From the NCBI RefSeq assembly GCF_036417845.1, contig NC_090019.1, forward strand, positions 62,001-126,000: a stretch of DNA of 64,000 nt. Reading direction: 5' to 3'. Source of the DNA: Apteryx mantelli (taxonomy: Eukaryota; Chordata; Aves; Apterygiformes; Apterygidae). Position 1 is the first letter of the stretch. Every line of letters starts with the position of its first letter. The position numbers were made by a program, and so were the translations under genes. Positions 1 through 63,578 of this stretch are shown one piece after another. The notes beneath the pieces were generated by a model, which saw only the letters and a list, made by a program, of their open reading frames with translations, did not search any database and was not told where the DNA came from.

Positions 1-1489
1 GGTGTCCCTTAGCGTGTCACGATGTCCCTTAGCGTGTCACGGTGTCCCTTAGCGTGTCATGGTGTCCCTTAGCGTGTCACGGTGTCCCTTAGCATGTCAT
101 GGTGTCCCTTAGCGTGTCATGATGTCCCTTAGCGTGTCACGGCGCCCCTTAGTGTGTCATGGTGTCCCTTAGCGTGTCACGGTGTCCCTTAGTGTGTCAT
201 GGTGTCCCTTAGCGTGTCACGGTGTCCCTTAGTGTGTCATGGTGTTCCTTAGCGTGTCATGGTGTCCCTTAGCGTGTCATGGTGTCCCTTAGCGTGTCAT
301 GGTGTCCCTTAGTGTGTCATGGTGTCCCTTAGCGTGTCACGGTGTTCCTTAGCGTGTCATGGTGTCCCTTAGCGTGTCATGGTGTCCCTTAGTGTGTCAT
401 GGTGTTCCTTAGCGTGTCACGGTGTCCCTTAGCGTGTCATGGTGTCCCTTAGCGTGTCATGGTGTTCCTTAGCGTGTCACGGTGTCCCTTAGTGTGTCTT
501 GGTCTCCCTTAGCGTGTCATGGTGTTCCTTAGTGTGTCATGGTGTCCCTTAGCGTGTCACAGTGTCCCTTAGCGTGTCACGGTGTCCCTTAGCGTGTCAC
601 GGTGTCCCTTAGTGCGTCATGATGTCCCTTAGTGTGTCATGGTGTCCCTTAGTGTGTCACGGTGTCCCTTAGTGTGTCATGGTGTTCCTTAGCGTGTCAT
701 GGTGTCCCTTAGCGTGTCACGGTGTCCCTTAGCGTGTCACGATGTCCCTTAGCGTGTCACGGTGTCCCTTAGCATGTCATGGTGTCCCTTAGCGTGTCAC
801 GGTGTCCCTTAGCATGTCATGGTGTCCCTTAGCGTGTCATGATGTCCCTTAGCGTGTCACGGCGCCCCTTAGTGTGTCATGGTGTCCCTTAGCGTGTCAC
901 GGTGTCCCTTAGTGTGTCATGGTGTCCCTTAGCGTGTCACGGTGTCCCTTAGCGTGTCACGGTGTCCCTTAGTGTGTCATGGTGTTCCTTAGCGTGTCAT
1001 GGTGTCCCTTAGCGTGTCATGGTGTCCCTTAGCGTGTCATGGTGTCCCTTAGTGTGTCGTGGTGCCCCTTAGTGTGTCATGGTGTCCCTTAGCATGTCAT
1101 GATGTCCCTTAGTGTGTCACGGTGTCCCTTAGCGTATCACAGTGTCCCTTAGTGTGTCATGGTGTCCCTTAGCGTGTCGTGGTGCCCCTTAGTGTGTCAT
1201 GGTGTCCCTTAGCGTGTCACGGCGTCCCTTAGCGTGTCACAGTGTCCCTTAGCGTGTCACGGTGTCCCTTAGCATGTCACAATGTCCCTTAGCGTGTCAT
1301 GATGTGCCTTAACGTGTCGTGGTGTCTGTTAGCGTGTTGTGGCATCCCTTGGCGTGTCACAGTGTCCCTTAGCATGTCATGGTGTCCCTTAGCGTGTCAC
1401 GGTGTCCCTTAGTGTATCACGACGCCCCTTAGCGTGTCACGGTGGCCCTTAGCGTGTTGCAAAGCGCCTTAGCGTGTCCCAGTGCCCCC
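1..1489. repeat. 20-bp tandem array with 720-bp higher-order copy
   Basis: About 73 head-to-tail copies of a 20-bp unit close to GGTGTCCCTTAGCGTGTCAC, in strict 20-bp register to about 1460 and then decaying. Variants (C/T at the last base, GCG/GTG/GCA in the middle, GTTCC for GTCCC) are ordered: the run of variants at 1-320 recurs at 721-1040 apart from one inserted unit, so the array carries a 36-unit (720-bp) higher-order duplication. No gene is seen in it. Its position suggests it lies in an upstream UBA1 intron (inference). Confidence 0.95.
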
Positions 1490-32383: not shown

Positions 32384-32389
32384 TTTATT
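32384..32389 (-). terminator. CCDC115: Minus-strand AATAAA polyadenylation signal, candidate for CCDC115
   Basis: TTTATT on the plus strand gives AATAAA on the minus strand, the first such signal downstream of the CCDC115 stop at 33777. Using it gives a 3' UTR of about 1.4 kb made mostly of the TGACGTCA-type array. Confidence 0.5.
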
Positions 32390-32399
32390 GTCACACGTG

Positions 32400-33775
32400 T
32401 CACCCCCCCACCGCAGCCACGTGCGCCAACGCGCCACCCCCGTGGTCACGCCAAGGCTGCATCACGCGTGTGCGGCGTCACGCCAACGCCGTGTTCGATG
32501 TCACGCTGGTCGCGTGTGACGTCACGACAGTGCCGTGGGTGGCGTCACGCCAATGCCGCGGTCGATGTCACGCTGGTTCCGTGTTTGACGTCACACCGGT
32601 TGCGTGTGACATCACGACGATGCCGTGTGCGGCGTCACGCCAATGCCATGCTCGACGTCACGCCAACGCCGTGTTCGATGTCACGCTGGTTGCGTGTGAC
32701 GTCACGACGATGCCGTGTGTGGCGTCACGCCAATGCCGTGGTCGATGTCACGCCGGTTGCGTGTGACGTCACGACGATGCCATGTTTGACATCATGCCAA
32801 TACCATGTTCGGTGTCACACCAGTTGCGCGTGATGTCACGCCAACGGCGTGTTCGATGTCACGCTGGTTGCATGTGACATCACGACGATTCCATGGGTGA
32901 CGTCACACCAATGCCATGTTTGACGTCACGCCAGTTCCATGTTTGGTGTCACACCAATGCCATGTTTGATGTCACGCCGGTTCCGTGTGATGTCACACTG
33001 ATGCCATGTTTGGCGTCACGCCAATGCCGTGCTTGATGTCACGCCGGTTCCGTGTGATGTCACACTGATGCCGTGTTTGGCGTCACGCTAGTTCCGTGTT
33101 TGATGTCACACCGCTTCCGTGTGACATCACAACGATTCCATGTGCAGCGTCACGCCAATGCCATGTTTGACATCACGCCAGTTCCATGTTCGGCGTCACG
33201 CCAACGCCATGTTCGACGTCACGCCGGTTGCATATGATGTCATGCCGGTTCCGTGTTCAATGTCACACCGGTTGCATGTGACGTCACGCTGATGCCATGT
33301 GTGGCATCACACCGATGCCATGTTCAACGTCACACCAGCTCCATGTTTGGTGTCACGCCAATGCCGTGTTCGATGTCACGCCAGTTCCGTGTGACGTCAC
33401 GCCGATGCCATGTTTGACGTCACACCAGTTCCATGTTTGGTGTCACGCCAATGCCGTGTTCGATGTCACACCGGTTGCGTGTGACGTCACGCTGGTTGCA
33501 TGTGACATCACGACGATGCCGTGTGTGATGTCATGCCAATGCCGTGTTCGATGTCACGCTAGTTCCGTGTTCGCGTCACACCAGTTCCGTGTGATGTCAT
33601 GACAATTCCGTGTCCAGCCTCACGCCGGTTCCATGTGGCGTCACGACGATTCCGTGTGCAGCGTCACGCCAATGCCATGTTTGACGTCACGCCAGTTCCA
33701 TGTTCGGCGTCACGCCGGTGGCGTGTGACGTCACGACGATGCCGTGTGCGACGTCACGCCGTTCGCGTGTCCAGC
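32400..33775. repeat. TGACGTCA-rich 25-30 bp array, probable CCDC115 3' UTR
   Basis: Units such as GTGTGACGTCACGACGATGC and GTCACGCCAATGCCGTGTTC, about 50 copies, many with a perfect TGACGTCA palindrome (CRE/ATF core) or GACGTCAC half. CpG-rich. Lies between the CCDC115 stop codon and its likely poly(A) signal. Confidence 0.9.
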
Positions 33776-33776
33776 G

Positions 33777-34351
33777 TCACGCCGACTCCGTGGCCACAGG
33801 CCTTTCCGCGTCCCTCGCGGCGTCCCCGGATGTTTCCGTGTCCCCGGAAATTTCCGCGTTTCTAGAAATTTCCGTGTTTCTGGAAGTTTCCATCTCTCCG
33901 GAAGCTTCTGCATCCCTGGAAGTTTCCCCGTTTCCGGACGTTTCCGCATCCTTAGACGTTTCCACCTCTCCAAAAGATTCCGTGTTGCCGAAAGTTTCCA
34001 CCTCCCCGGAATTTTCTGTGTTTCCGGGTGTTTCCGCCTCCCTGGAAGCTTCCGTCTTTCCGGACGTTTCCATTTTTCCGGACGTTTCCGCATCCTTAGA
34101 CGTTTCTGTGTTACCAGACGTTTCCAGCTCCCCAGAAAGCTCCGCATTGCCGGAAGTTTCCGCTTCCCTGGAACTTTCTGCATTTCCGGGTGTTTCCGTC
34201 TCTCTGGAACCTTCCATCTTTCTGGATGTTTCCGTTTTTCCAGACGTTTCCGTGTTTCCGTGCGGCTTGCGGCGCAGCAGGGCCCGGTAGCGGGCGCCAG
34301 CGGCCGCGACGGCTCCCTGCAGCTGCGCCAGCTCCACGGCCAGCGAGACGC
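33777..34351 (-). CDS. CCDC115: CCDC115 exon 5: C-terminal helix plus hexapeptide-repeat tail
   Basis: 575 nt, entering in phase 1. The first 30 codons read [20 protein letters not shown] then [11 protein letters not shown], aligning with the end of human CCDC115. About 155-160 further codons come from the 18-bp array: hexapeptides of the type ETSGKT / ETSRNT / DAETSG, rich in Glu, Thr, Ser and Gly. Acceptor AACGCAG at 34358-34352 (minus). Confidence 0.8.
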
Positions 34352-37316
34352 CTGCGTTCCGGGCGGAAAAAGGCCGGTTTGGGACCATCCGGGGCCTCAA
34401 TTCTGGGGCCGAGACGGCCGGTTTGGGGCAAAACGCAGCGATTTTGGGGGCACCGCAGCCGGTTTTGGGTGTTTCTTTTCGGTGGTTTCCCACGTCTTCC
34501 TAATTCGGTATTTTTTTCCCAAAAATTTTGGGTTTTCCCCCCCCAGTTTTTGGTTCTTCCCAATTTTGGTTTTTTTTCCCCCTCAATTTTGGGGGTTTCC
34601 TCTTATTTTGGGTTTTTTTTTCTTTCTTTTTGGAGTCTTACTTTATAATTTAAACCCATTTTGGGGTGCTTTTGCCTGTTTTGGGACGTTCCTTATTACT
34701 TGATCCCCTTTTGGGCGGATTTCTGCCCGTTTTGGGTGTTTTCTCTCCATTTCTTGAGACTTTTGGGGGGATATTTCTCCATTTTGGGGTAGTTTTTACC
34801 TCTTTCTTGATGCTAATTGGAGATCGTTTCTCCATTTTGGGGTGTTTTCACTCATTTTGGGATGTTTTCTGCCATTATTTGGTCCTTTGGGGGGCGTTTT
34901 TTTCCCCTTTCCGGCACCTTCTCACCCCATAATTTAACACCGTTTTGGGGTGGTTTTGCCCATTTTTGGGTGTTTGATCCCATTTTGGGGGGATTTCTGC
35001 CCATTTTGGGCTGTTTCCCATCATTCTTCAATATTTATTTTAGAATCTCTCCCTGTTTTGGGGTGTTTTTGCCTGATTTTTGGTGTTAGTTTGGGGTCTT
35101 TTCTCCATTTTCAGGTATTTTTGCTTATTTTGAGATTTTTTCTGCCATTACTTGGTACCTTTGGGGGCATTTTTCTTTTTTTGGGATGTTTTTCCTCTTT
35201 TAGAGACATTTTTTCTCTTTTTGGGGTGTTTTTTCACCTTTTAGGGGTGTTTCTACCCCGTTTTGGTGTCTCTCCCATCATTCCATGACCCCAAATTTGG
35301 TTTTTTTCCCCCCATTCTGGGGCTCTTCCTCTTTTTGGGGGGGTCCTCCCACCCCGTTTTGGGGTGAAACCCCCCTTATTTCGGGCAGCGCCGTTTCGGG
35401 GCGCCGCCGCCATCTTGGAGCCGCCATTTTGTCCCCCCCAACCCGTTTCCCCCCCCACACTTTGGGGGTCCCGTTCCAGCGCTTTCCGCCCCGTTTCGGG
35501 GTGCCCCCCCGCCCCGTTTCGGGGCCGTTTCCCCCCGTTTCGGGGCCGTTTCCCCCCGTTTCGGGGCTCTCACCCTGGCGGAAGCTGCCCTGCGCCTGCC
35601 GCAGGCTCCGGGGCACCAGGATGCCGAACCAGGTCAGGGGGTCGCGGGGGGGCCCCGGCTTCGGGGGGGTCCCCGGTTTCGGGGGGGGCCCCGGGGGGCC
35701 CCCGCGACGCTGCCGCGGCCCTGGGGGGGGAACGGGGGGGGGTCGGTGCCAGCCCGGGACCCCCCAGATTGAGGGGGATCGAGCCCAAAAATCCGGTGAC
35801 CCCCTCAGCACCCCCCTTGACCCCCCAAATCCCCCCATGACCCCCCCAAATCGCCCTAATAACCCCCCAGGACCCCATAGCCCCCATTTGACCCCCAAAT
35901 TGCCCCGTGACCCCCCAAATCCCCCATGACCCCCCTCAAAAGCCCCTGTGACCCCCCCAAATCACCCATTGCCCCCCCAAACCTCCCCAAATCCCCCTGT
36001 GACCCCCCCAAATCGCCCCAATAACCCCCCGGGCCCCCCGTAGACCCCAATCGACCCCCCCAAATCACCCCGTGACCCCCCAAAACTCCCCATGATCCTC
36101 CCAGACCCCCCCAAATCCCCCTAATAACCCCCCAGATCCCCATAGCCCCCATTTGACCCCCCAAATCACCCTGTGACCCCCCCAAATCGCCCCATGACCC
36201 CCCAACCACCCCCACAATCCCTCTCTGACCCCCCAAATCGCCCATTGCATCCCCAACCCCCCCCAAATCCCTCTGTGACCCCCCCAAATCACCCCAATAA
36301 CCCCCCCGGCCCCCCGTAGCCCCCATTTGACCCCCCCAAATCCCCCTGTGACCCCCCAAAACGCCCCGGTACCTGCTGGGGGGTGCTCGGGGGGGCCCCC
36401 CTCCGGCGCCAGCAGCTCCTCGAAGCGGGGGGCCCCCCCCGGGCCCGGCCTGTGGGGGGGGGGGCAGAACGGAGGTGAGGGCGCCCCCAAAACTAAGGGG
36501 GACCCTCCCCCCCATTGCCACCCCCCCACTTTGGGGACCCCCCCGTCCCCTCCCCCCTCCTTGGGACCCCCCTGCCCCCCCCAAAACTGGGGACCCCCCC
36601 CGTCAACCCCCCAAAATAGGGGGCCCCCCGATGGCTCCTGTGTCCCCCTACCCCATGTCCCCAAACCCCTCCAAAGCCCTCACCCGTGTCCCTAAATGTC
36701 CCCTAATGTCCCTCAACCCCCCCCACAGCCCCCGTGTCCCTAAATGTCCCTTAATGTCCCCATCGCCGGTGTCCCCACGTCCCCCCTTCGGGTCCCCCGA
36801 CCCCCCCAATCCCCCCGGGTCCCCCAATGCCCCCCCATGTTCTCATCCCCTGTGTCCCCATGTCCCCCCTCCGTGTCCCCCAATGTCCCCCAACCCCCCT
36901 ACAGCCCCCCCCGTGTCCCTAAATGTCCCCCAATGTCCCCGTGTCCCCCGACCCCCTCCCCCAAATCCCGTATCCCCCAATGTCCCCCCCCCCCCGGCCG
37001 TGTCCCCACCTGGTGGCGACGCGGACGCGGGGGTCCATGGTGGCCCCGTACTGCAGGGCCGAAACGCGGTGGCAGCCCAGGGCGTAGCGGGCTTGGGACA
37101 GGGAGAGCCACCCCTGGGGGGGGGAGGGACACGGGTGTCACCAGGGGGGAGGGGGACACAGGCGACAGCGAGTCCCCGCGTCCCCCCCCGGCGCGTCCCC
37201 ACCTGCTCCAGGCAGGCGGCGAAGGCGTCGCGGCGCCGCTGCAGCGTCTCCAGCGCCTCGAGCAGCTCCAGCGCCGCCGCGTCCAGCTCCCGGCACAGCG
37301 CCGCCTCCGCCGCCAT
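33777..37316 (-). CDS. CCDC115: CCDC115, V-ATPase assembly factor, with repeat-derived C-terminal tail
   Basis: Orthologue of yeast Vma22: with TMEM199 it helps assemble the V-ATPase V0 sector in ER/Golgi. Coding exons in transcript order: 37316-37203, 37113-37010, 36449-36373, 35720-35574, 34351-33777; all GT-AG and all phases fit, giving 338 residues against 180 in human. Conserved blocks are [46 protein letters not shown] and the signature [18 protein letters not shown]. After LLRRK, where other vertebrates end, no stop follows; the frame continues through an 18-bp minisatellite for about 160 residues to TGA at 33777-33779. The gene is head-to-head with IMP4. Confidence 0.93.
33800..34270. 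repeat. 18-bp minisatellite within the CCDC115 reading frame
   Basis: About 24-25 units of exactly 18 bp, plus-strand form TTTCCGTGTTTCTGGAAG. Because 18 is a multiple of three and the units rarely carry stops, several frames are open on both strands; only the minus-strand frame joins a conserved coding exon. Confidence 0.93.
34352..35573. repeat. CCDC115 intron 4: TTTTGGGGTGTTTT array and YY1-like sites
   Basis: 34440-35290 is a degenerate plus-strand T-rich array (CCATTTTGGGGTGTTTT, 20-50 bp units), an AT-richer island in the window. 35290-35570 is CpG-rich with CCCCGTTTCGGGG repeats and two consensus YY1-type elements, GCCGCCATCTTGG at about 35407 and GCCGCCATTTTG at about 35422. Confidence 0.8.
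35574..35720 (-). CDS. CCDC115: CCDC115 exon 4: signature [14 protein letters not shown]
   Basis: 147 nt, phase 1 to 1. Opens with a Pro/Gly/Arg-rich linker ([17 protein letters not shown]) and then [20 protein letters not shown] and FRQ, the best conserved CCDC115 block. Acceptor after a C tract at 35722-35721, donor GTGAGA at 35573. Confidence 0.96.
35721..36372. repeat. CCDC115 intron 3: CCCCCCAAATCGCCC array
   Basis: Units of 16-40 bp around TGACCCCCCAAATCGCCCC and ATAACCCCCC in blocks of about 110-170 bp. C-rich on plus, so the sense (minus) strand is G-rich. Confidence 0.88.
36373..36449 (-). CDS. CCDC115: CCDC115 exon 3
   Basis: 77 nt, phase 2 to 1. Reads (R)[18 protein letters not shown] then PPEHPPA. 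Poorly conserved middle segment; assigned by frame and GT-AG sites (acceptor CACAG, donor GTACCG). Confidence 0.8.
36450..37009. repeat. CCDC115 intron 2: GTCCCTAAATGTCCCC array
   Basis: 36480-36640 is simple C-rich sequence; 36650-37000 contains 20-30 bp units around CCGTGTCCCTAAATGTCCCC. No coding sense seen. Confidence 0.8.
37010..37113 (-). CDS. CCDC115: CCDC115 exon 2
   Basis: 104 nt, phase 0 to 2. Reads [20 protein letters not shown] then [14 protein letters not shown]; human CCDC115 has GWLSLAKARYAMG and LQYASHMEPQV here. Acceptor CCCAG, donor GTGGGG. Confidence 0.95.
37203..37316 (-). CDS. CCDC115: CCDC115 exon 1: start codon
   Basis: 38 codons from ATG at 37316-37314: [20 protein letters not shown] then [18 protein letters not shown], an amphipathic helix as in human. 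Donor GTGGGG at 37202. The start context GGCGATGGC follows the CpG promoter directly. Confidence 0.95.
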
Positions 37317-43201: not shown

Positions 43202-43360
43202 CGCCCCGGACGCCTGGGCCCCCTTCCCGCCCGGACGCCTGGGCCCCTTTCCCCGGACGCCTGGGCCCCTTTTCCACCCGGACGCCTGGGCCCCTTCCCC
43301 GGACGCCTGGGCCCCTTTTCCCATCGCTTTTTATTTTTGCGCTTTTCACCTTATAAAACC
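43202..43360. other. Convergent 3' ends of IMP4 (+) and PTPN18 (-)
   Basis: The IMP4 stop is followed within six bases by five copies of CCCGGACGCCTGGGCCCC (43206-43320), then a small AT-rich patch. On plus, TATAAA at 43352-43357 is a variant poly(A) signal for IMP4. On minus, AATAAA (TTTATT at 43330-43335) serves PTPN18. The two 3' UTRs would overlap or abut. Confidence 0.65.
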
Positions 43361-43473
43361 AAAGTCGCTTTTTTCCTTCGCCGCCTCCTTCGTCGCCGAA
43401 GCTCCCGCGGGGGGGGAGGGGAAGGGGCCCAGGCGTCCGGGCAGAGCCCCGCCCCCCGGCCCCGCCCCCCGGG

Positions 43474-43541
43474 TCACACGCGCGACCACTCGGCCGGGGG
43501 ATCGCGGGGCCCTTTGGGCTTCCCGATGCGGCAGTTGAAGC
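43474..43541 (-). CDS. PTPN18: PTPN18 last exon: C-terminal homology motif
   Basis: 68 nt, entering in phase 1, reading GFNCRIGKPKGPRDPPAEWS then RV and stop TGA at 43476-43474. In this family the motif binds PSTPIP-type partners. Acceptor CCGCAG on minus. Confidence 0.95.
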
Positions 43542-46184
43542 CTGCGGGGGAGGGGAGAGGGGTGAGGGGGCAGGGCCAGGACGCCTGGGCCCCTTTCCCG
43601 GACGCCTGGGCCCCTTCCCGGACGCCTGGGCCCTTTCCTGGACGCCTGGGCCCCCTTCCCCGGACGCCTGGGCCCCTTCCCGGACACCTGGGCCCTTTTC
43701 CCGGACGCCTGAGCCCTTTCCCGGACGCCTGGGCCCCTTTCCCGGACGCCTGGGCCCCTTTCCCGGACGCCTGGGCCCCTTTTCCCGGACGCCTGGGCCC
43801 CTTTCCCGGACGCCTGGGCCCTTTCCCCGGACGCCTGGGCCCCTTCCCAGACACCTGGGCCCCTTTCCTGGATGCAGGACTCCTTTCCCCGGACGCCTGG
43901 GCCCTTTCTCCCCGGATGCCTGGGCCCCTTTCCCGGACGCTTGGGCCCTTTCCCGGACGCCTGGGCCCTTTTCCCGGACACCTGGGCCCTTTTCCCGGAC
44001 ACCTGGGCCCTTTTCCCGGACACCTGGGCCCCTTTCCCGGACGCCTGGGCCCCTTCCCGGACGCCTGGGCCCCTTTCCCGGACGCCTGGGCCCCTCCGCT
44101 CACCCAGGCCGGACCCCTGGGCGCTGCCGGCCGCTGCGGCGGCTCCGACGTCCTCGTAGGCGGCTCCGAGGGGCTGGGGGGAGACTGAGGGGGGGCAGTT
44201 AGATCCCCCAGCCCCTATAGAAACCCCCTATAGGGATCCCTATAGGGGCCAGAGAGACCCAGAGATCCCTATAGGGCCTGAGGGGGGCGGTTAATGGCCC
44301 CTATAGGGCCTGGGGGGGGGGGAGGGGAACCATACAGCCCCTATAGGATTGGTGAGGGAGGGGGATGAAGAGCAATAGGGTCCCTATAGGGTTGGGGGGG
44401 GGTGCGCGAGTCCCTATAGAGTCCACGAAGGGACCCTACGGGTCCTATAGGGCTCCCGGGGTGGGGGCTTATGGCCCTTATAGGGCCCAGGGAGAGATCA
44501 TATGGCTCCTGGGGGGGGGCAATATAGCACCTATAGGTCTCTATACGGTTTTTCCAGGTCTGACTGGGGGGGCTATAGGGTCCCTATAGGACCTGGAAAA
44601 GGAGCACGTGGTTCCTATAGGGTTTGGGGGGGGAGGCAGGGCTCCTATAGGGCCCAGGAAGGGAGCACATGGGCTGGGGGGGGGGATATATAGCGTCTAT
44701 AGGGCTGGAGAGGGTCTATAGGGCTGTTAGGAGGATAATATGGATTCTATAGGGTTTGGGGAGGATCCCTATAGGGCTCTTGGGGGGGTAATAGGGATTC
44801 TATAGGGTCTGGGGAGGGTCCCTATAGGGCTGTTGGGGGGGTTTCCCCGGACGCCTGGGCCCCGGCGCACTCACTCTTCTTGGTGGGGGTCGGTGTGAAG
44901 CCCTGTGGGAGCAGAGTGGGGGGGAGGGAGGGGTGAGCGGGGAGGGGGCCCAGGCGTCCGGGCAGCCCCCCCTCCTCCCCCCACCCCCGCCCCGGACGCC
45001 TGGGCCCCCCCCCGGCCCCACCCCCACCCCCAGACTCACCGGGGGCCGAGGTTGCGGACGAGGTTCTTGCAGGGGGGGCTGCTCTCACCTGGGGGGGGGG
45101 GTTGGACAGGTGGGGGAGGGGCCCGGACGCCTGGGCCCCTTTCCCCGGGTACCTGGGTCCCTTCCCCGGACGCCTGGGCCCCTTCCCGGACGCCTGGGCC
45201 CTTTCCGCAGATGCAGGACTCCTTTCCCCGGACACCTGGGCCCTTTCCCCGAACACCTGGGCCCCTTCCCCGGACGCCTGGGCCCCTTTCCCCGAACACC
45301 TGGGCCCCTTCCCCGGATGCCTGGGCCCCTTTCCCGGACACCTGGGTCCCTTCCCAGACACCTGGCTCCTTCCCTAACTCCTGTGTTCCCCCCTTTCCCG
45401 GACGCCTGGGCCCCTTCCCCAGACGCCTGGGTCCCCCCGACTCACCGGTGGGGGAGGGGCGGTGCACGGGGCTCCCCGGCAGGGAGCAGGGGCTCGGGGG
45501 GGCGGGGCCCGGACCGGGGGGCGGGGCCAGGCCCGAGGGGGCGGAGTTTTGTGCCTGGGCCCCGGCCCCGCCCCCCCGGCGGGGCTTGTTGACGACGGCG
45601 TAGGTGTCCTCCATGTGGGGGGGGGGAGGGGGCGGGGCGCTCCTGGAGAGGGGGGAGGGGTCAGCGAGGGGCCCAGGCGTCCGGGTTCACTGCTAGAGGG
45701 GGGGGCCGGACGCCTGGGCCCCTTTTCCCCGATGCCTGGGTCCCTCTCGGACGCCTGGGCCCCTTCCCCTGGTCTCCTGCCCCCCCCCCCCCCCCAGGAC
45801 GCCTGGGCCCCTCTGGGCACCCGCCCCATCCCCCACCCAAAAACCTGCCCACTTGAGGCACCCGGACGCCTGGGCCCTTCCCGGACTCCTGGGCCCCTTC
45901 CTCAGACGCCTGGGCCCTTTCCAGATGCCTGGATCTCCCCGGACACCTGGGCCCTTTCCAGACACCTGGGTCTCCCCGGATACCTGGGCCCCTTTGGGAC
46001 ACCTGGGTCCCTTCCTCGGACGCCTGGGCCCTTTCCAGATGCCTGGATCTCCCCGGACACCTGGGCCCCTCCCGGACTCCTGGGCCCCTTCCCGGGACGC
46101 CTGGGCCCCTCTCACCTCCTGCAGCCCCGGGGCCTCCGGCGCCTCCCGGAAGAGCCGGGTTGGGCCCCCGACAGGAAGCGGTGC
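43474..46184 (-). CDS. PTPN18: PTPN18, C-terminal part only (no catalytic domain seen)
   Basis: PTPN18 is a PEST-type cytoplasmic protein tyrosine phosphatase. Exons in transcript order: 46184-46116 (tentative), 45642-45446, 45088-45040, 44902-44875, 44173-44104, 43541-43474. The last four join in phase with the second and give EDTYAVVNK (human ADTYAVVQK), AAYEDVG (human AYEDVAGG) and the C-terminal homology motif GFNCRIGKPKGPRDPPAEWS, diagnostic of the PTPN12/18/22 family. The expected roughly 300-residue catalytic domain with its HCSAGxGRTG loop is nowhere between 46190 and the MON1B start. The tentative first exon does not join in the best frame unless the G run at 45617-45626 is one base too long. 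Confidence 0.82.
43542..44103. repeat. GGACGCCTGGGCCCCTTTCC minisatellite in PTPN18 intron
   Basis: About 25 copies of the same 20-bp unit as UBA1 intron a, on the plus strand and therefore antisense to PTPN18. An isolated inverted copy (GGGGCCCAGGCGTCCGGGC) lies nearby at 43424-43442. Confidence 0.95.
44104..44173 (-). CDS. PTPN18: PTPN18 exon with YEDV motif
   Basis: 70 nt, phase 0 to 1. Reads PLGAAYEDVGAAAAAGSAQG then SGL; human has GAYEDVAGGAQTGGLGFN. The Tyr is a likely phosphorylation site. Acceptor CCCCAG, donor GTGAGC. Confidence 0.9.
44190..44845. repeat. CCCTATAGGG palindrome array in PTPN18 intron
   Basis: Some 30 copies of the self-complementary CCTATAGG/CCCTATAGGG separated by G-rich spacers of 10-30 bp. 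Each copy can pair with any other copy or with itself, so hairpins or cruciforms are possible. Confidence 0.9.
44875..44902 (-). CDS. PTPN18: PTPN18 28-nt microexon
   Basis: 28 nt, phase 2 to 0, reading (R)ASHRPPPRR. It is accepted because it has clean splice sites (CCCACAG, GTGAGT) and exactly restores phase between its neighbours; the reading with GFTPTPTKK breaks the downstream frame. Confidence 0.75.
45040..45088 (-). CDS. PTPN18: PTPN18 exon
   Basis: 49 nt, phase 1 to 2. Reads (G)ESSPPCKNLVRNLGP. Acceptor CCCCAG, donor GTGAGT. Human has a divergent Ser/Pro-rich segment here. Confidence 0.8.
45089..45445. repeat. GGACGCCTGGGCCC-type repeat in PTPN18 intron
   Basis: About 15 diverged copies (CCCCGGACACCTGGGCCC, CCCCGAACACCTGGGCCC) from 45115 to 45435, more degenerate than the array at 43560-44100. 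Confidence 0.9.
45446..45642 (-). CDS. PTPN18: PTPN18 exon with DTYAVV motif
   Basis: 197 nt, ending in phase 1. Reads MEDTYAVVNKPRRGGGAGAQ, AQNSAPSGLAPPPGPGPAPP and SLPGSPVHRPSPT. Human PTPN18 has MADTYAVVQKRG followed by a Gly/Thr-rich stretch. The upstream part crosses a run of ten G on plus (45617-45626); with one fewer it would read PAPSPPHMEDTYAVV, close to human VPGSPGHAMADTYAVV. Confidence 0.88.
45643..46115. repeat. GGACGCCTGGGCCC-type repeat in PTPN18 intron
   Basis: About 18 degenerate copies (CCCGGACACCTGGGCCC, CCAGATGCCTGGATCTCC), with a segment near 45910-45960 repeated near 46025-46070. One inverted copy (CCCAGGCGTCCGGG) lies at about 45671. Confidence 0.88.
46116..46184 (-). 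CDS. PTPN18: Tentative PTPN18 exon, most 5' one found
   Basis: 69 nt with acceptor CTCCAG and donor GTGAGA. One frame reads APLPVGGPTRLFREAPEAPG then LQE, weakly like human CAPLYDDALFLRTPQALL. The frame that splices without change into the next exon reads HRFLSGAQPG instead. No exon is recognised upstream. Confidence 0.45.
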
Positions 46185-46783: not shown

Positions 46784-47789
46784 GTGAGGGCGGGGCCGCC
46801 CCGACCACGCGTGGGGGCGGGGGGAGGGGGCGGGGAGAGCGCCCGGGAGGGGGCGGGGCCACTGCGCGGCGCGGGAAACCTCCCCCCCCCTTTCCCGGGG
46901 GGCGGGATCGCGAGTGGGGAGGGGGGGGTCTCCGAGGGGCGGGGCTTGAATGGGGGTTTCCGAGGAGGGGGCGTGGCCGGGAGGGGGCTTCGCGGAGGCG
47001 GGGCCTGCCGGGGAACCCCAGCGAGCGCGGCTGGGAGGGGGCGTGGCCTGGAGCCTGGGGGCGTGGCCTGGGCAGTGTGCCTTCTAGGGGCGTGGCCTGG
47101 AGGAGAATTCCCCCCCCCCCGCTTGGAGGGGGTCTCCTGTGGTGGGGCAGGGCCTGCAGAAAGGGATGTGGAAGGGGGCGTGGCCTGTAGGGGCGTGGCC
47201 TGCCGGGTGGGCCTCCCAGGGGGCGTGGCCTAATGGTATTAGGGGGAATCTCCTGGCAGGGTGTTGCTAGGGTGTGGGGGGGCAGAGCAGTCTCCAAGGA
47301 GGGGGCGTGGCTTGGAGGGGTGGAGTCCAGGGGCGTGGCCAGAAACGGGGTGGCCTTTCCCCAGGGGGGCGTGGCCTGGCCCAGAGTGGGCGGGGATTCT
47401 CCTGGAGGTGGGTGTAGCCTGTCTCCAATGGGGGGGGAGGGAAATGCCCTGGAGGAGGGGCTCGCCAAGGGGGCGTGGCCTAGGGTGGAACGGGGGCGTG
47501 GCTACATGGCGCTATGGGGGCGTGGTCTATAGTGCTCTGGGGGCGTGGCCTAGGGGTGTGTGGCCTCTACGGTGCTTCCCAGGGGCTGTAGCCTGCAGGG
47601 AAAGAGGCCTAAGGAGGGGGGTGGAGGGAATCGTGGCAGGGGCGTGGCTTCCAGGGGGTGTGGCCTCAATGGGGAGTGGCCTGATGATGGGGGGCGTGGC
47701 TTCCCCCAGCCTTTAAGGGCTGGGAAGCGGGAAGGGGGGGGTTTTCTCCTGAGCGCCGCGGACGCCCGGTTCCTCCCCGCCGGGGCCAG
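46784..47789. repeat. GGGGGCGTGGCCTGG repeats in MON1B 5' intron
   Basis: Some 20-25 copies of GGGGGCGTGGCC at irregular 20-60 bp spacing from 46960 to 47710. The core matches KLF/Sp CACCC/GC boxes (GGGCGTGGC). Confidence 0.82.
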
Positions 47790-47812
47790 GTGGCGGCAGC
47801 GGCGGCGGGGCC

Positions 47813-48125
47813 ATGGCGGAGGCGGCGGAGGTGGCGGAGGCCGAGGGGCAGCGCCCGGACGCCGGGGCCCCCGCGGAGGAGGGCGGCGGCGGCGGAGGCG
47901 GCGGCGGCGGAGGGGGGAGCCGGCGGCAGCGGCGGGGCGAGGAGGACGTGACGGAGGCCGGGTGGCGGGCGCGGCCGAGCCACGTCTTCGTGCTGAGCGA
48001 GGCCGGCAAGCCCATCTACTCGCGCTACGGCGACGAGGAGGCCTTGGCGCCCACCATGGGCGTCATGATGGCCCTGGTGGCCGTGCTGCAGAGCGCTGGC
48101 AACGCCATCCGCGCCATCTGCTCCG
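47813..48125 (+). CDS. MON1B: MON1B exon with start codon
   Basis: 313 nt, phase 0 to 1, from ATG in GGGGCCATGG. Reads [20 protein letters not shown], a poly-Gly run, [20 protein letters not shown] and [20 protein letters not shown]. Donor GTACGG at 48126. Confidence 0.94.
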
Positions 48126-51100
48126 GTACGGGGGCGGCGGGGGGCGGTGGGGGCGCGGGGTGGGGGGTCCTGTCTCATATCTGCCCCAAAATGGCCCCGT
48201 TTCCATGAGGTGGTCCTCAAAGATGGCCGCGTTGCCCCAAAATGGCACTGTTTCCATGAGGTGTTGCCCCAAAATGGCCCCGTTTCTGTGAGGGGTTCCT
48301 CCAAGATGGCCGTGTTGCCCCAAAATGGCCCCGTTTCCAGAGACGTTGCCCCAAAATGGCCCCCTTTCTGTGAGGTGGTCCTCAAAGATGGCCGCATTGC
48401 CCCAAAATGGCACTGTTTCCATGAGGTGGTCCTCAAAGATAGCCGTGTTGCCCCAAAATGGCCCTATTTCCTTGAGACGTTGCCCCAAAATGGCCCCCTT
48501 TCTGTGAGGGGTTCCTCCAAGATGGCCGTGTTGCCCCAAAATGGCCCCGTTTCCAGAGACGTTGCCCCAAAATGGCCCCCTTTCTGTGAGGTGGTCCTCA
48601 AAGATGGCCGCATTGCCCCAAAATGGCACTGTTTCCATGAGGTGGTCCTCAAAGATAGCCGTGTTGCCCCAAAATGGCCCTATTTCCTTGAGACGTTGCC
48701 CCAAAATGGCCCCCTTTCTGTGAGGTGGTCCTCCAAGATGGCCGTGTTGCCCCAAAATGGCCCCGTTTCCAGAGACGTTGCCCCAAAATGGCCCCCTTTC
48801 TGTGAGGTGGTCTTCAAAGATGGCCGCATTGCCCCAAAATGGCACTGTTTCCATGAGGTGGTCCTCAAAGATAGCCGTGTTGCCCCAAAATGGCCCTATT
48901 TCCTTGAGACGTTGCCCCAAAATGGCCCCCTTTCTGTGAGGTGGTCCTCCAAGATGGCCGCGTTGCTCCAAAATGGCCCCATTTCCAGAGACGTTGCCCC
49001 AAAATGGCCCCCTTTCTGTGAGGTGGTCCTCCAAGATGGCCGCGTTGCTCCAAAATGGCACTCTTTCTATGAGGTGATCCTCAAAGATGGCTGTGTTGCC
49101 CCAAAATGGCCCTGTTTCCATGAAGGGTTCTCACAAAATGGCCATGTTGCCCCAAAATGGCCCCATTTCTGTGAGATGGTCCTCAAAGATGGCCGCGTTG
49201 CCCAAAATGGCCGTGTTTCCATGACATGTTGCCCCAAAATGACCCTGTTTCCATGAGGTGTTCCTCCAAGATGGCCGCGTTGCCCTAAAATGGCCCCGTT
49301 TCCATGAGGTGGTCCTCAAAGATGGCCACTTTCCTCAAAGATGGCCGCGTTGCCCCAAGATGGCCCCGTTTCCATGAGGTGTTCTCACAAAATGGCCGCA
49401 TTGCCCCAAAATGCCTCCGTTTCCATGAAGGGTTCCTCCAAGATGGCCGCATTGCCCCAAAACAGCCCCGTTTCCAGGAGGGGTTCCTCCAAGATGGCCA
49501 CGTTGCCCTAAAATGGCCCCGTTTCCATGAGGTGGTCCTCAAAGATGGCCACTTTCCTCCAAGATGGCCGCGTTGCCCCAAGATGGCCCCGTTTCCATGA
49601 GGGGTTCTCACAAAATGGCCGCATTGCCCCAAAATGCCTCCGTTTCCATGAGGTGGTCCTCCAAGATGGCTACGTTGGCCCAAAACAGCCCCGTTTCCAG
49701 GAGGGGTTCCTCCAAGATGGCCGCGTTGCCCTAAAATGGCCCCGTTTCCATGAGGTGGTCCTCAAAGATGGCCACTTTCCTCCAAGATGGCCGCGTTGCC
49801 CCAAGATGGCCCCGTTTCCATGAGGGGTTCTCCCAAAATGGCCGCGTTGCCCCAAAATGGCCCCCTTTCCGTGAGGGGTTCCTCCAAGATGGCCGCCTTC
49901 CTCCAAGATGGCCGCGTTGCCCCAAAACGGCCCCCTTTTCCCCCAAAACAGCCACTTTTTCACCACCATGAGCCCCAAACCCCAAACACCCATATTTTGT
50001 CACCCGGAAGCCCAAACCCTCCCCAGAAACACCCGTATTTTGTCACCCGGAAACCCAAATCTGAACCCAAACATCAACGTTTTGGTCCCATGAATACCAA
50101 ACAACCGCGTTTTGTCACCGGGACCCCCAGACCCTCCCCAAAACACCTGTATTTTGTCACCTGGAACCACAAGCCGTCTCCAAAACACCCATATTTTGTC
50201 ACCGGGAGCCCCAGACCATCCCGCAAAACCCCCATGTTTTGTCACCCGGAACCCTAAATCCTCCCCGAAACATCCATGTTTTCATCCTATGAATCCAAAA
50301 CAACCACATTTTGTCACCGTGAACCCCGGACCCGCCCCCAAACACCCGTATTTTGGTACCGTGAATCCAAACCCCCCCCCCCCCCCAGAAACACCCGTCT
50401 TTTGTCACCCGTATTTCATCACTGGGAATCCCAGACCCTCCCCAAAACACCTGTGTCTTGTCACTGTGAACCCCAAACTGTCCCCAGAAACACCTGTATC
50501 TTGTCACCGGGAACCCCAAACCCTCCCCAAAACACCCGTATCTCGTCACCAGGAACCCCAGACCCTCCAAAACACCCATATTTTGTCACCCAGAATCCCA
50601 AACCCTCCCAAAGCACCTGTATTTTGTCATTGGGAACCCCAGACCCTCCCCAAAACACCCGTATTTGGTCACCTGGAATCCCAAACCCTCCCCAGAAACA
50701 CCCGTATCTCGTCACTGTGAACCCCAAACCCTCCCCAAAACACCTGTATTTTGTCACCGTGAACCCCAAATCCTCCCCAGAAACACCCATATTTCGGTAC
50801 CACAAATCCAAAACCCTCCCAGAAACACCTGTATTTCATCACCATGAAACCTAGACTCTCCCCAAAACACCCGTACCTCGTCACCAGGAACCCCAGACCC
50901 TCCAAAACACCCGTATTTTGTCACCGTGAACCACAAATCCTCCCCCAAAACACTTGTAATTTGTCACCCGGAATCCCAAACGCTCCCTAGAAACACCCAT
51001 ATTTTGGTACCGTGAATCCCAAACCTTCCCCCAAACCACCTTTTTTTTGTCACCGTGAACCCCAGACCCTCCCCAAAACACCCGTATCTCGTCACCGGGG

Positions 51101-59800: not shown

Positions 59801-62800
59801 ATGGAGGTGACGCCACGTCCCCGTGTCGCCTCCCCTGAGGGGACGGAGGTGACGCCACATCCCTGTCGCCTCCCCTGAGGGGACGGAGGTGACGCCACGT
59901 CCCCGTGTCACCTCCCCTGAGGGGATGGAGGTGACGCCACGTCCCCGTGTCGCCTCCCCTGAGGGGACGGAGGTGACGCCACGTCCCTGTCGCCTCCCCT
60001 GAGGGGACGGAGGTGACGCCACGTCCCTGTCGCCTCCCCTGAGGGGACGGAGGCGACGCCACGTCCCTGTCGCCTCCCCTGAGGGGACGGAGGTGACGCC
60101 ACGTCCCTGTCGCCTCCCCTGAGGGGACGGAGGTGACGCCACGTCCCTGTCGCCTCCCCTGAGGGGACGGAGGTGACGCCACGTCCCCGTGTCGCCTCCC
60201 CTGAGGGGACGGAGGCGACGCCACGTCCCTGTCGCCTCCCCTGAGGGGACGGAGGTGACACCACGTCCCTGTCGCCTCCCCTGAGGGGACGGAGGCGACG
60301 CCACGTCCCCGTGTCGCCTGCCCTGAGGGGACGGAGGTGACGCCACGTCCCTGTCGCCTCCCCTGAGGGGACGGAGGTGACGCCACGTCCCCGTGTCGCC
60401 TCCCCTGAGGGGACGGAGGCGACGCCACGTCCCTGTCGCCTCCCCTGAGGGGACGGAGGCGACGCCACGTCCCTGTCGCCTCCCCTGAGGGGACGGAGGC
60501 GACGCCACGTCCCCCTGTCGCCTCCCCTGAGGGGACAGAGGCGGCGACACCTATCCCACAATGCCTTGCGCTTGGCGCGAGCGGCTCCTCTCCCCTTTCC
60601 CTCCGCTTTTTCCAGGCGCCGACGCGGAGCTGCTCGAGCCGCCGACGCCGGAAGCGCCGGGTAGGTCCCGCCCCCGCCCCCGACCCGGACGCCTGGGCCC
60701 TTCCGCGCGTGCGCGTGGCGGGGGGGGGGGGAGCGGCACCCGGACGCCTGGGCCCGCTCCGCCATGCCGCCTCTTTCTCCCGCGCAGCCGAGCCGCGGGC
60801 GCCGCGCGTGGACGAGCTGCTGAGCCGCCTGCGCGCCCTGCGCCGAGGTGAGCGCCGGCGCCCGCGCAAGGTTTCGGGGGCACCCATGGGTGCTGCCCCG
60901 CCCCCCCCCCCAGCACCCATGGGTGCCCCCCACCCACTTTTCCCCCCCGCAGCGCGGCAGGCGGGAGCGCGGGAGCTGGCGGCGGCGGAAGGCCGCAACG
61001 AGGGGCTGCGGCGGGAGCTGCGGCGCCGTGAGTGAAGGGGGGGGCCCAGGCGTCCGGGCGCGGGGGTGGGGCGCGGAGGGGGCCCAGGCGTCCGGGCGCC
61101 CCCTCATCGCCCCTCCCCCGCGCAGTGGAGGAGCAGCAGGCGGCGCTGGAGGGGCTGCGGCAACGGAAGCGGGGTGAGGGCGGGGCCGCTTCCCAGCATG
61201 CCTCGGGGCGCCGCGCCCGGACGCCTGGGCCCCTTCCTCACCCCCCCCCTCCCCTCCCCCGCGCGCGCAGAGGCGCTGGGAGCCGCCCGGCTGCGCTGGG
61301 AGGAGGCCGAGGCCGAAGGGCAGCGGTGAGCGAGGGGGAGGAGCCCGGACGCCTGGGCCCCTCCCCGCCCCGCCCCCTTCCGCCGTCCGTGACCCCCCCC
61401 CCCGGGCTCCTCGGTGACCTCTGACCCCCCCCAGTGACCCCGCGTCGCCCCTCCCCCCGAGCCCTGCTGACCTCTGACCCTCCCCCCCCTCCAGTGGCCC
61501 CGCCCCCTTGTGTCCCCCGGTGACCCCTGACCCCCGGTGACCCCTGACCCCTGCCCCAAACCCTGTGACCCCTGGTGACCCCCCGGTGACCCCTGGTGAC
61601 CCCTGACCCCTGCCCCAAACCCTGTGACCCCTGGTGACCCCTGGTGACCCCTGGTGACCCCTGACCCCGGCCCCAAACCCTCTGACCCCTGGTGACCCCC
61701 CTGGTGACCCCTGGTGCCCTGGTGACCCCTGACCCCTGCCCCAAACCCTCTGACTGCCGGTGACCCCTGACCCCCAGTGACCTCTGGTGACCCTTGACCC
61801 CTGCCCCAAACCCTCTGACCCCTGGTGACCCCTGACCCCTGGTGCCCCCTGGTGACCCCTGCCCCAAACCCTCTGACCCCTGGTGACCCCTGACCCCTGG
61901 TGACCCCTGACCCCTGGTGACCCCGGTGACCCCTGACCCCTGCCCCAAACCCTCTGACCCCTGGTTACCCCTGACCCCTGGTGCCCTCTGGTGCCCTGGT
62001 GACCCCTGACCCCTGCCCCAAACCCTTTGACCCCAGTGACCCCTGACCCCCAGTGACCCCTGGTGACCCCTGCCCCCAACTCTCTGACCCCGGTGACCCC
62101 TGACCCCCAGCGCCCCCTGGTGCCCTGGTGACCCCTGACCCCAACTCTCTGACCCTTGGTGACCCCTGACCCCCGGTGCCCCCTGGTGACCCCTGACCCC
62201 TGCCCCAAACCCTCTGACCCCTGGTGACCCCTGGTGCCCCCGTGACCCCTGACCCCCCCCCGCGACCCTTTCCACCCCGGTGCCCTCGGACCCCAGCGCC
62301 CCCCCTCGACCCCCGGCCCGCGACCCCTGACCCCCGCGACCCCTGACCCCGCCCCCCTCGACCCCTGACCCCGCCCCCCGCGACCCCTGACCCCGCCCCC
62401 CTCGACCCCTAACCCCCGACCCGCGACCCCTGACCCCCGACCCCGCGGTGCCCCGCAGGCGCCGGGCGCTGTGGGCGGGGCGGCAGCAGGCCCTGGCGGA
62501 GCTGGGGGGGCGCCGGGGCGACCTGCGGCTCCAGCGGCGCCGCCTCAGGTGCGACCCCCCCCCCCGCCGCCGCCGCGTCCCCCCGCGTGTCCCCACGCGT
62601 GTCCCCACGCGTCACGACACGTCCCGACACGCGGCGACACGCGATAACACGCAGCAACACGCGGCAACACGCACCCAGGCACCGCCCCGGCGGTGCCACC
62701 TCAGCTGCCACCCCCCCCGCCGCGTCCCCGCGCGCCCCCACACGCGCCAACACGCCACGGCACGCAGCCACACGCCCCCCCGCACGCGACAACGTGCCCC

Positions 62801-63578
62801 GACACGCCCTGACACGCCGCGACACGCCTCCACACGCCTCCTGTCCCACGCGTCTTCTGGGGGGCGGTTCCGGCGCGGCGCGTGTGCGTGACGTTGTGGC
62901 GTGGCGCGACGTGTTACAGCATGTCATGGCGTGTCACTGCGTGCCGTGTGTCACGTGTGGCGGTATATCCTGGCGTGTTGTCATGTGTCATGGCGTGTCA
63001 TAGCGCGCCGTGGCGTGTTGTCACATGTTCTGGCATGTTGTTGTGTGTCATGGTGTGTTGTCACGTGTCATGGCGTGTCATAGCGTGCTGTGGCGTGTTG
63101 TCACATGTTCTGGCATGTTGTGGCATGTCATGGCACGTTGTCGTGTGTCATGGCGTGTTGTCACATGTCATGGCGTGTCATCGCGTGCCGTGTGTCATGT
63201 GTGGCAGTATATCCTGGCGTGTTGCCACGTGTCATGGCGTGTTGTTGTGTGTCATGCTGTGTGGTCATGTGTCACGGCGTGTCATCGCGTGCCGTGTGTC
63301 GCGTGTGGCGGTGTATCCTGGCGTGTTGCCACGTGTCGTGGCGTGTCGCGCCGTGTTGTCGCACATCACGGCACGTTGCGGCATGTCACGGTACGTTGTC
63401 ACGTGTTGGGGCGTGTCATGGCGTGTCGTGGCGTGTCGTGGCGTGTTGTCGCGTGTCGTGGCGTGTCGTGGCGTGTTGTCACGTGTCGTGGCGTGTCGAG
63501 CGGGGCCGTTGCAGGCTGGAGTTCGCGCAGCAGCTGGAGGAGCTGGCGGAGGAGCACAAGCGGCTGCGGGAGGCGCAC
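56789..63578 (+). CDS. SYCE1L: SYCE1-like synaptonemal complex central element protein (5' part)
   Basis: Eight coding exons so far: 56789-56807, 60616-60660, 60788-60847, 60953-61027, 61126-61173, 61271-61325, 62459-62548, 63515-63578; all GT-AG and all phases fit, 152 codons, continuing beyond the window. After an acidic/Pro N-terminus the product is one long coiled coil: VDELLSRLRALRRA, GLRRELRRLEEQQAALEGLR, LGAARLRWEEAEAEGQRRR and LEFAQQLEELAEEHKRLREA. The last resembles SYCE1 LEFQEQLEDLMGQHKDL. Position next to MON1B, as in human, favours SYCE1L. SYCE1 proteins hold the central element of the synaptonemal complex in meiosis; SYCE1L is less studied. Symbol less certain than for the other genes. 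Confidence 0.75.
56830..60545. repeat. 40-42 bp palindrome-bearing minisatellite, SYCE1-like intron 1
   Basis: About 90 units of 40 or 42 bp, TCGCCTCCCCTGAGGGGACG then GAGGTGACGCCACGTCCC(CG)T. Each has the perfect inverted repeat CCCCTGAGGGG. Substitutions are few (G/A in GTCGCC, C/T in GGAGGCGAC, occasional GGGGAT), so copies are highly homogeneous. Minus-strand frames of up to about 770 codons (GDVASPPSPQGRR type) are artefacts of the unit. Confidence 0.97.
60616..60660 (+). CDS. SYCE1L: SYCE1-like exon 2
   Basis: 45 nt, phase 1 to 1: (G)ADAELLEPPTPEAP. Acceptor TTCCAG, donor GTAGGT. About 60 bases upstream, ATCCCACAATGCCTTGCGC (60552-60570) resembles a ZNF143 site. Confidence 0.72.
60788..60847 (+). 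CDS. SYCE1L: SYCE1-like exon 3: coiled-coil start
   Basis: 60 nt, phase 1 to 1: (A)EPRAPRVDELLSRLRALRR. Acceptor GCGCAG, donor GTGAGC. Leu residues fall in heptad positions. Confidence 0.78.
60953..61027 (+). CDS. SYCE1L: SYCE1-like exon 4: coiled coil
   Basis: 75 nt, phase 1 to 1: (A)RQAGARELAAAEGRNEGLR then RELRR. Acceptor CCGCAG, donor GTGAGT. Confidence 0.78.
61126..61173 (+). CDS. SYCE1L: SYCE1-like exon 5: coiled coil
   Basis: 48 nt, phase 1 to 1: (L)EEQQAALEGLRQRKR. Acceptor GCGCAG, donor GTGAGG. Two inverted GGACGCCTGGGCCC copies lie just upstream (61046 and 61080). Confidence 0.76.
61271..61325 (+). CDS. SYCE1L: SYCE1-like exon 6: coiled coil
   Basis: 55 nt, phase 1 to 2: (E)ALGAARLRWEEAEAEGQ. 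Acceptor GCGCAG, donor GTGAGC. Confidence 0.77.
61326..62458. repeat. CCTGGTGACCCCTGACCCC array, SYCE1-like intron 6
   Basis: From about 61430, units GTGACCCCTGACCCC(TG) grouped into blocks of about 75-120 bp each closed by GCCCCAAACCCTCTGACC, roughly ten blocks; the last 150 bases become CGACCCCTGACCCCGCCCCC. Confidence 0.92.
62459..62548 (+). CDS. SYCE1L: SYCE1-like exon 7: coiled coil
   Basis: 90 nt, phase 2 to 2: (R)[19 protein letters not shown] then GDLRLQRRRL. Human SYCE1-family proteins have a similar ALW...QLxxL stretch. Acceptor CCGCAG, donor GTGCGA. Confidence 0.77.
62570..63510. repeat. ACACGCGGCAACACGC / GTGTCATGGCGTGTTGTC arrays, SYCE1-like intron 7
   Basis: 62590-62850: C-rich ACACGC-type units of 8-12 bp. 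62880-63500: GCGTGTTGTCACGTGTCATG units in blocks of about 90-150 bp. The two halves are roughly reverse complements in composition (CACGC versus GCGTG), so an intramolecular fold is conceivable. Contains CACGTG E-boxes. Confidence 0.9.
63515..63578 (+). CDS. SYCE1L: SYCE1-like exon 8: LEFAQQLEEL motif
   Basis: 64 nt, phase 2 to 0: (R)LEFAQQLEELAEEHKRLREA and H. This aligns with the best conserved part of SYCE1, LEFQEQLEDLMGQHKDLWEF. Acceptor TTGCAG, donor GTGAGC. The gene continues past the window. Confidence 0.8.

Follow-up and report, generated by a model that had tools for sequence, protein, structure and literature searches.

Coding minisatellites and VNTR proteins such as the mucins carry in-frame units whose length is a multiple of three, and their products are of low complexity and rich in Ser and Thr. 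Ten chicken dot chromosomes have been defined (PMC9974502), and the sequence stuttering reported for them consists of repeat blocks isolated in introns, with repeat variation between genes affecting intergenic DNA as well; no case crossing into exons is reported, and coding regions are described as intact (PMC12954441, 2026). Intronic tandem repeats were found in case studies of GC-rich avian genes, as were GC-rich motifs in the exons of leptin (PMC6792250). A coding example is provided by exon 2 of emu IRF3, which exhibits an in-frame extension through four-fold repetition at the 3' boundary of the exon, the authors suspecting a dot-chromosome history for the losses of IRF3/IRF9 (PMC12220609). 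The gene considered below is CCDC115. Its product and TMEM199 are taken to correspond in mammals to yeast Vma12p-Vma22p and to take part in assembling the V-ATPase at the ER (PMC5391204). CCDC115 is not named in the main text of PMC12954441, and no account of a repeat tail on this protein was found among the open-access titles and abstracts listed for CCDC115, avian repeats or coding repeats; annotated database proteins with such a tail may well exist.

CCDC115 gene model and core protein

The window (i.e. the whole 64,000-bp stretch analysed, positions 62001-126000 of a 245,289-bp contig) belongs to a kiwi (Apteryx mantelli) assembly of 1.5 Gb in 408 contigs. A CCDC115/Vma22 gene of five exons was modelled on the minus strand, with GT-AG at every junction, a total length of 1017 nt and a predicted product of 338 aa:

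37203..37316, minus strand: exon 1, start codon at 37316, donor CAG/gtgggg, phase 0
37010..37113, minus strand: exon 2 of the gene model
36373..36449, minus strand: exon 3 of the gene model
35574..35720, minus strand: exon 4 of the gene model, in which 35646-35694 is a small 18-bp repeat (2.7 copies)
33777..34351, minus strand: last coding exon of 575 nt, with helix, repeat tail and stop TGA at 33779-33777

A sequence-only reading of this DNA had named the gene as CCDC115 and held that all upstream splice phases fit. Both statements were borne out: the intron phases are 0, 2, 1 and 1, all compatible, and the predicted protein matches Pfam family PF21730 (Vma22_CCDC115) above the cut-off (E=1e-10; 42.6 bits versus 28 for the whole protein), with residues 122-147 as the best-matching stretch. 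The product divides into a core of 175 aa and a tail of 163 aa, in agreement with the proposal that a tail of about 160 residues nearly doubles the protein. Human CCDC115 is about 180 aa long. The core is of about family length, as yeast Vma22 (8eas, 181 aa) aligns there, albeit weakly (E 0.85; yeast residues 123-167 with query residues 117-159). The small repeat in exon 4 encodes PKPGTP-like hexapeptides, again in steps of three.

Neighbouring genes were also examined. A Brix domain, as in IMP4, was detected in hand-joined plus-strand pieces at ~39.5-42.9 kb of the window (35.3 bits versus a cut-off of 28.2), while the five single ORFs of this stretch, scanned one by one, gave no Pfam match; IMP4 is the neighbour of CCDC115 in human. 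A longin domain of the FUZ/MON1/HPS1 type (PF19036, 6.5e-12) lies at ~47.98-48.13 kb within 47753-48208 on the plus strand, probably in a MON1 gene, to judge from its motif.

Several other matches were considered. A second PF21730 match (contig C2), hoped to be a retrocopy with the old stop, was dropped on inspection by eye as a CTTTT-rich microsatellite stretch, and the similarity of the tail to Bactofilin (E 0.049; 14.3 bits versus a cut-off of 27.9) fell below threshold and was taken as noise. None of 19 pattern matches to viral contigs was a relative by tblastn. The single cytochrome b match, at 76.9 Mb of contig C5, contains stops and is thus a nuclear copy. All 150 of the 150 scored keratin candidates matched PF02422, as suits a bird genome, with dozens of equal-scoring copies, many about 5.6 kb apart, at C15:26341346-26653072.

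Repeat arrays and the stop codon

The 3' end of the gene is composed largely of two arrays, with one AATAAA beyond them and another upstream:

33828..34259, minus strand: 24 in-register 18-bp units with no indel (the array proper being 34259-33780)
33780..33827, minus strand: degenerate array end, a 12-bp partial unit (6 bp short, in frame; hand parse) followed by units 25 and 26
32467..33791, minus strand: 23-bp minisatellite with the stop codon in its first full unit, forming most of the presumed 3'UTR
32384..32389, minus strand: AATAAA beyond both arrays, the only one found on the minus strand between 28000 and 34400
35034..35039, minus strand: AATAAA in intron 4, a possible intronic polyadenylation signal whose use would drop exon 5

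The earlier description of a last exon without a stop where the core ends, and of a frame running through about 24 units of 18 bp to a TGA at 33777-33779, was confirmed and extended by the degenerate end. Neither a stop, such as one directly after LLRRK, nor a strong splice donor was present before the end of the array. All 24 units are exactly 18 bp long in one register, a multiple of three by which the frame is kept, and their consensus, GGAAACACGGAAACTTCC, translates as GNTETS. Identity of the units to this consensus is 61-89% (mean 75%), indicating an old array with no fresh expansion; present-day length polymorphism, which had been expected, therefore does not follow. Beyond the 24 units, unit 25 is identical to the best other unit at 14/18 positions (shuffle P 0.0002) and unit 26 at 11/18 (shuffle P 0.036), after which the TGA follows. 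Among lags of 1-15 units, self-similarity is highest at nine units (0.73), and higher-order copies (units 2-8 and 10 versus units 11-18) are 84.7% identical, indicating that the array grew by blocks of whole units, though not recently. With a TRF score of 442 for its 162-bp period, the array is not a chance product. Having an array at all is ordinary here, because TRF arrays cover 75% of the window and 78% of the contig.

The tail contains 39 Asp/Glu and 16 Lys/Arg among its 163 residues. Its GC content is 54% (GC3 54%), as compared to 80% (GC3 95%) for the core. An AlphaFold model of exon 5 alone predicted one helix (residues 2-26; block pLDDT 76-92) followed by coil (block pLDDT 46-54); as a single-sequence model this is weak evidence, with which a disordered tail fits.

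The 23-bp array comprises 59 full units, all containing TGA, with lengths of 23 (41 units), 21 (17) and 22 bp (one) and a CpG observed/expected ratio of 1.39. Its first full unit supplies the last codons and the stop. As any frame entering this array meets a stop after 12, 35 or 58 bp, the match of the stop with the array border is partly automatic. The refined consensus sequences of the 18- and 23-bp units share a near-identical 12-mer (AACACGGAAACG/AACACGGAATCG; score 19, P 0.005 by shuffling). Descent of the two units from one ancestor was retained as a hint only, as TRF's own 23-bp row was not among the ten best (scores of 14-15) in a comparison with 83 other TRF rows for which unrefined consensus sequences were used.

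Reading frame, residues and indels

Openness of the frame carries almost no weight, because four of the six frames run stop-free through the 24 units (the remaining two contain 4 and 3 stops) and a base-specific substitution model predicts 0.40 stops in the coding frame, with a probability of 0.68 for none. The open frame was accordingly rejected as evidence for coding, frames on both strands being open across the units and likewise over a wider stretch. Of the proposal that an 18-bp unit keeps the frame open, the register of the 24 units stood, while openness did not count as evidence.

The same figures suit an unlikely alternative in which the tail is mostly not made: transcripts would end in intron 4, the array would be spliced out or the message would be destroyed, and the open frame would be an accident of a stop-poor repeat. 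An AATAAA is indeed present in intron 4 (35039), into which the exon-4 frame stays open for 98 codons, and the tail residues are without detectable constraint (see below); termination there would, however, remove the exon 5 helix, whose acceptor and phase are intact. Removal of the array by splicing is countered by the weakness of its donor-like sites. Scored with an approximate PWM, the best GT between exon 5 and the AATAAA at 32389 reached 1.64 versus 4.39-4.61 for three of the real donors and 0.66 for the fourth. In total, the minus strand of the window holds three AATAAA motifs (32389-32384, intron 4 and 43.3 kb).

Constraint on the tail residues was not detectable. Variability at codon positions 3, 1 and 2 was 0.445, 0.335 and 0.192, respectively (permutation P 0.058). 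The nonsynonymous share between units was 0.632 versus 0.689 expected (P 0.07), a shifted frame giving P 0.055, and a recount of the deficit as 26 unique events gave P 0.22. Of the 22 changes that separate the higher-order copies, 15 were nonsynonymous, a share of 0.682 versus a neutral expectation of 0.683; dN/dS was 0.62-0.85, depending on the transition weight, and 0.55-1.01 in the two shifted frames. A functional gain from the tail was not supported, constraint being undetectable both between units and between higher-order copies. It is quite improbable that the tail is maintained by selection for a function, whether in this bird alone or in a wider bird group (e.g. as an acidic disordered arm tuning V-ATPase assembly, or through phosphosites): the Glu kept at unit position 4 in 24/24 units, the ordering of codon-position variability, the excess of acidic residues and the absence of indels would all suit such a role, but the nonsynonymous share between the higher-order copies equals its neutral expectation and the coding frame scores no better than a shifted one.

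Indels were compared between the 18-bp array and other arrays. Over 432 bp the array exhibited 106 mismatches and no indel. When TRF's own unit was used instead, the piece 34150-34260 showed 2 indels, and a linear-gap alignment carried on to the stop contained 4 small indels (i.e. frameshift events), which a manual parse reduces to a single in-frame deletion of 6 bp. The 40 control arrays of the window gave 757 indel events and 3754 mismatches; none of 249 432-column alignment windows with at least 15% mismatch was indel-free, as compared to 52 of 1086 without this filter. Unique substitutions and unique frameshifts numbered 26:0 in the target versus 1065:288 in these controls (Fisher P 0.002), 512:135 in the 22 controls with no consensus run of >4 bases (P 0.0026) and 25:4 in the adjoining UTR array alone (P 0.07). 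Across the whole contig the unique events of 143 controls were 3967:1232 (P 0.0009), and 157 of 1408 diverged 432-column alignment windows (421 of all 3143) were indel-free. Four of the 143 arrays possess an indel-free stretch that contains 106 mismatches or more (425, 358, 199 and 164), placing the target fifth of 144; three of the 143 are wholly indel-free. Of the four control arrays with such stretches, two are stop-filled, a third is stop-filled in its window part and the fourth (13-bp) is largely open. The reading frame of the 18-bp array thus appears protected from indels, but the depletion, strong within the window, is kept as support and was rejected as proof, because the contig-wide controls also include indel-free arrays.

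Three long arrays of the contig were recorded in the course of these comparisons. A 20-bp array (window 1-1457; contig 60696-63457) extends over 2.76 kb with no indel although 7% diverged, its window part being stop-filled. Two 58-bp arrays are also stop-filled: the one at contig 160731-163457 contains an indel-free run that spans 1917 of its 2727 bp (22% mismatch), and the one at 163644-165567 is wholly indel-free (19% mismatch).

An error of assembly or consensus that hides the true stop or misplaces the array is very improbable: the contig is repeat- and GC-rich with two 200-N gaps outside the window, and a single assembly was available, but the window contains no N, the 24 units show no frame break, the last exon has one match in the assembly (in a search that skips simple repeats), and differences between the 18-bp units make repeat collapse less likely.

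Proposed origin and comparison with described systems

The best explanation, which we consider reasonably probable, is a translated, near-neutral tail that arose from repeat growth inside the terminal exon. Local tandem-repeat growth, as described for introns of avian dot microchromosomes, would have acted at the 3' end of CCDC115. An 18-bp stop-free unit, a multiple of three, would have multiplied within the terminal coding exon, directly behind the C-terminal helix, and a 23-bp TGA-bearing unit around the stop codon and outward, forming most of the presumed 3'UTR. If transcribed, the mRNA would be read through the 18-bp array and end in the first full 23-bp unit, yielding an ordinary CCDC115 core followed by a cytosolic tail of 163 residues that is disordered, acidic and rich in Glu, Thr and Ser. 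Such a tail would be tolerated because it lies beyond the part shared by the family, and a disordered arm after the last helix could be carried harmlessly. Any selection would serve to keep the frame unbroken and would scarcely affect the residues. As to the order of events, the ancestral stop may have been lost, or growth of the array within the original last exon may have displaced the native end outward. On present evidence the tail looks more like tolerated genomic clutter than a new working domain.

If translated, this near-neutral tail would make kiwi CCDC115 a counterexample to stuttering that leaves coding regions intact, as stated for chicken in PMC12954441, and would illustrate how a protein encoded in such a region can acquire a disordered tail while keeping its core. 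A wider reading, possible though doubtful, is that dot-chromosome stuttering enters coding exons with the frame acting as a sieve, such that units of one and the same repeat-prone tract are 3n and indel-free up to the stop and 23-/21-bp and indel-bearing after it. Gene ends on dot chromosomes would then steadily give rise to disordered C-terminal tails, and a TGA-bearing UTR array would be a stop trap ending any frame within about 60 bp. The locus also carries a warning for automatic annotation: stop-poor repeats stay open and may be called protein on that alone. Elsewhere in the window, at 43202-46108, stop-poor repeats keep frames open for 100 to 300 codons on either strand and could be so mistaken.

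With stuttering, as characterized in PMC12954441, the kiwi locus shares GC-rich, gene-dense, tandem-repeat-filled DNA and imperfect units of tens of bases, a likeness drawn from the sequence of one 245-kb contig in one assembly. This contig has a GC content of 63.7% and a tandem cover of 78%, with repeats in introns and between genes; TRF arrays cover 61%, 88% and 31% of CCDC115 introns 2-4 and 0% of intron 1 (89 bp). A stuttering repeat may start at an exon end, as reported in the same account, and the 23-bp array lies at the stop codon. Stuttering blocks are described there as staying out of exons, whereas the kiwi array 34259-33780 sits inside a coding exon. Members of the CCDC115/Vma22p family agree with the kiwi product in core family, motif and approximate length, but end about where the kiwi tail begins (yeast chain 181 aa). 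Coding minisatellites and mucins resemble the tail in having an in-frame unit that is a multiple of three and a low-complexity, Ser/Thr-rich product; unlike them, the kiwi units are diverged, which argues against recent turnover, and are attached to a cytosolic assembly factor. In emu IRF3 (PMC12220609), likewise a GC-rich avian gene, coding exon 2 has also been lengthened in frame by a repeat, but that repeat is short and internal, whereas that of kiwi CCDC115 comprises 26 units, is C-terminal and nearly doubles the protein.
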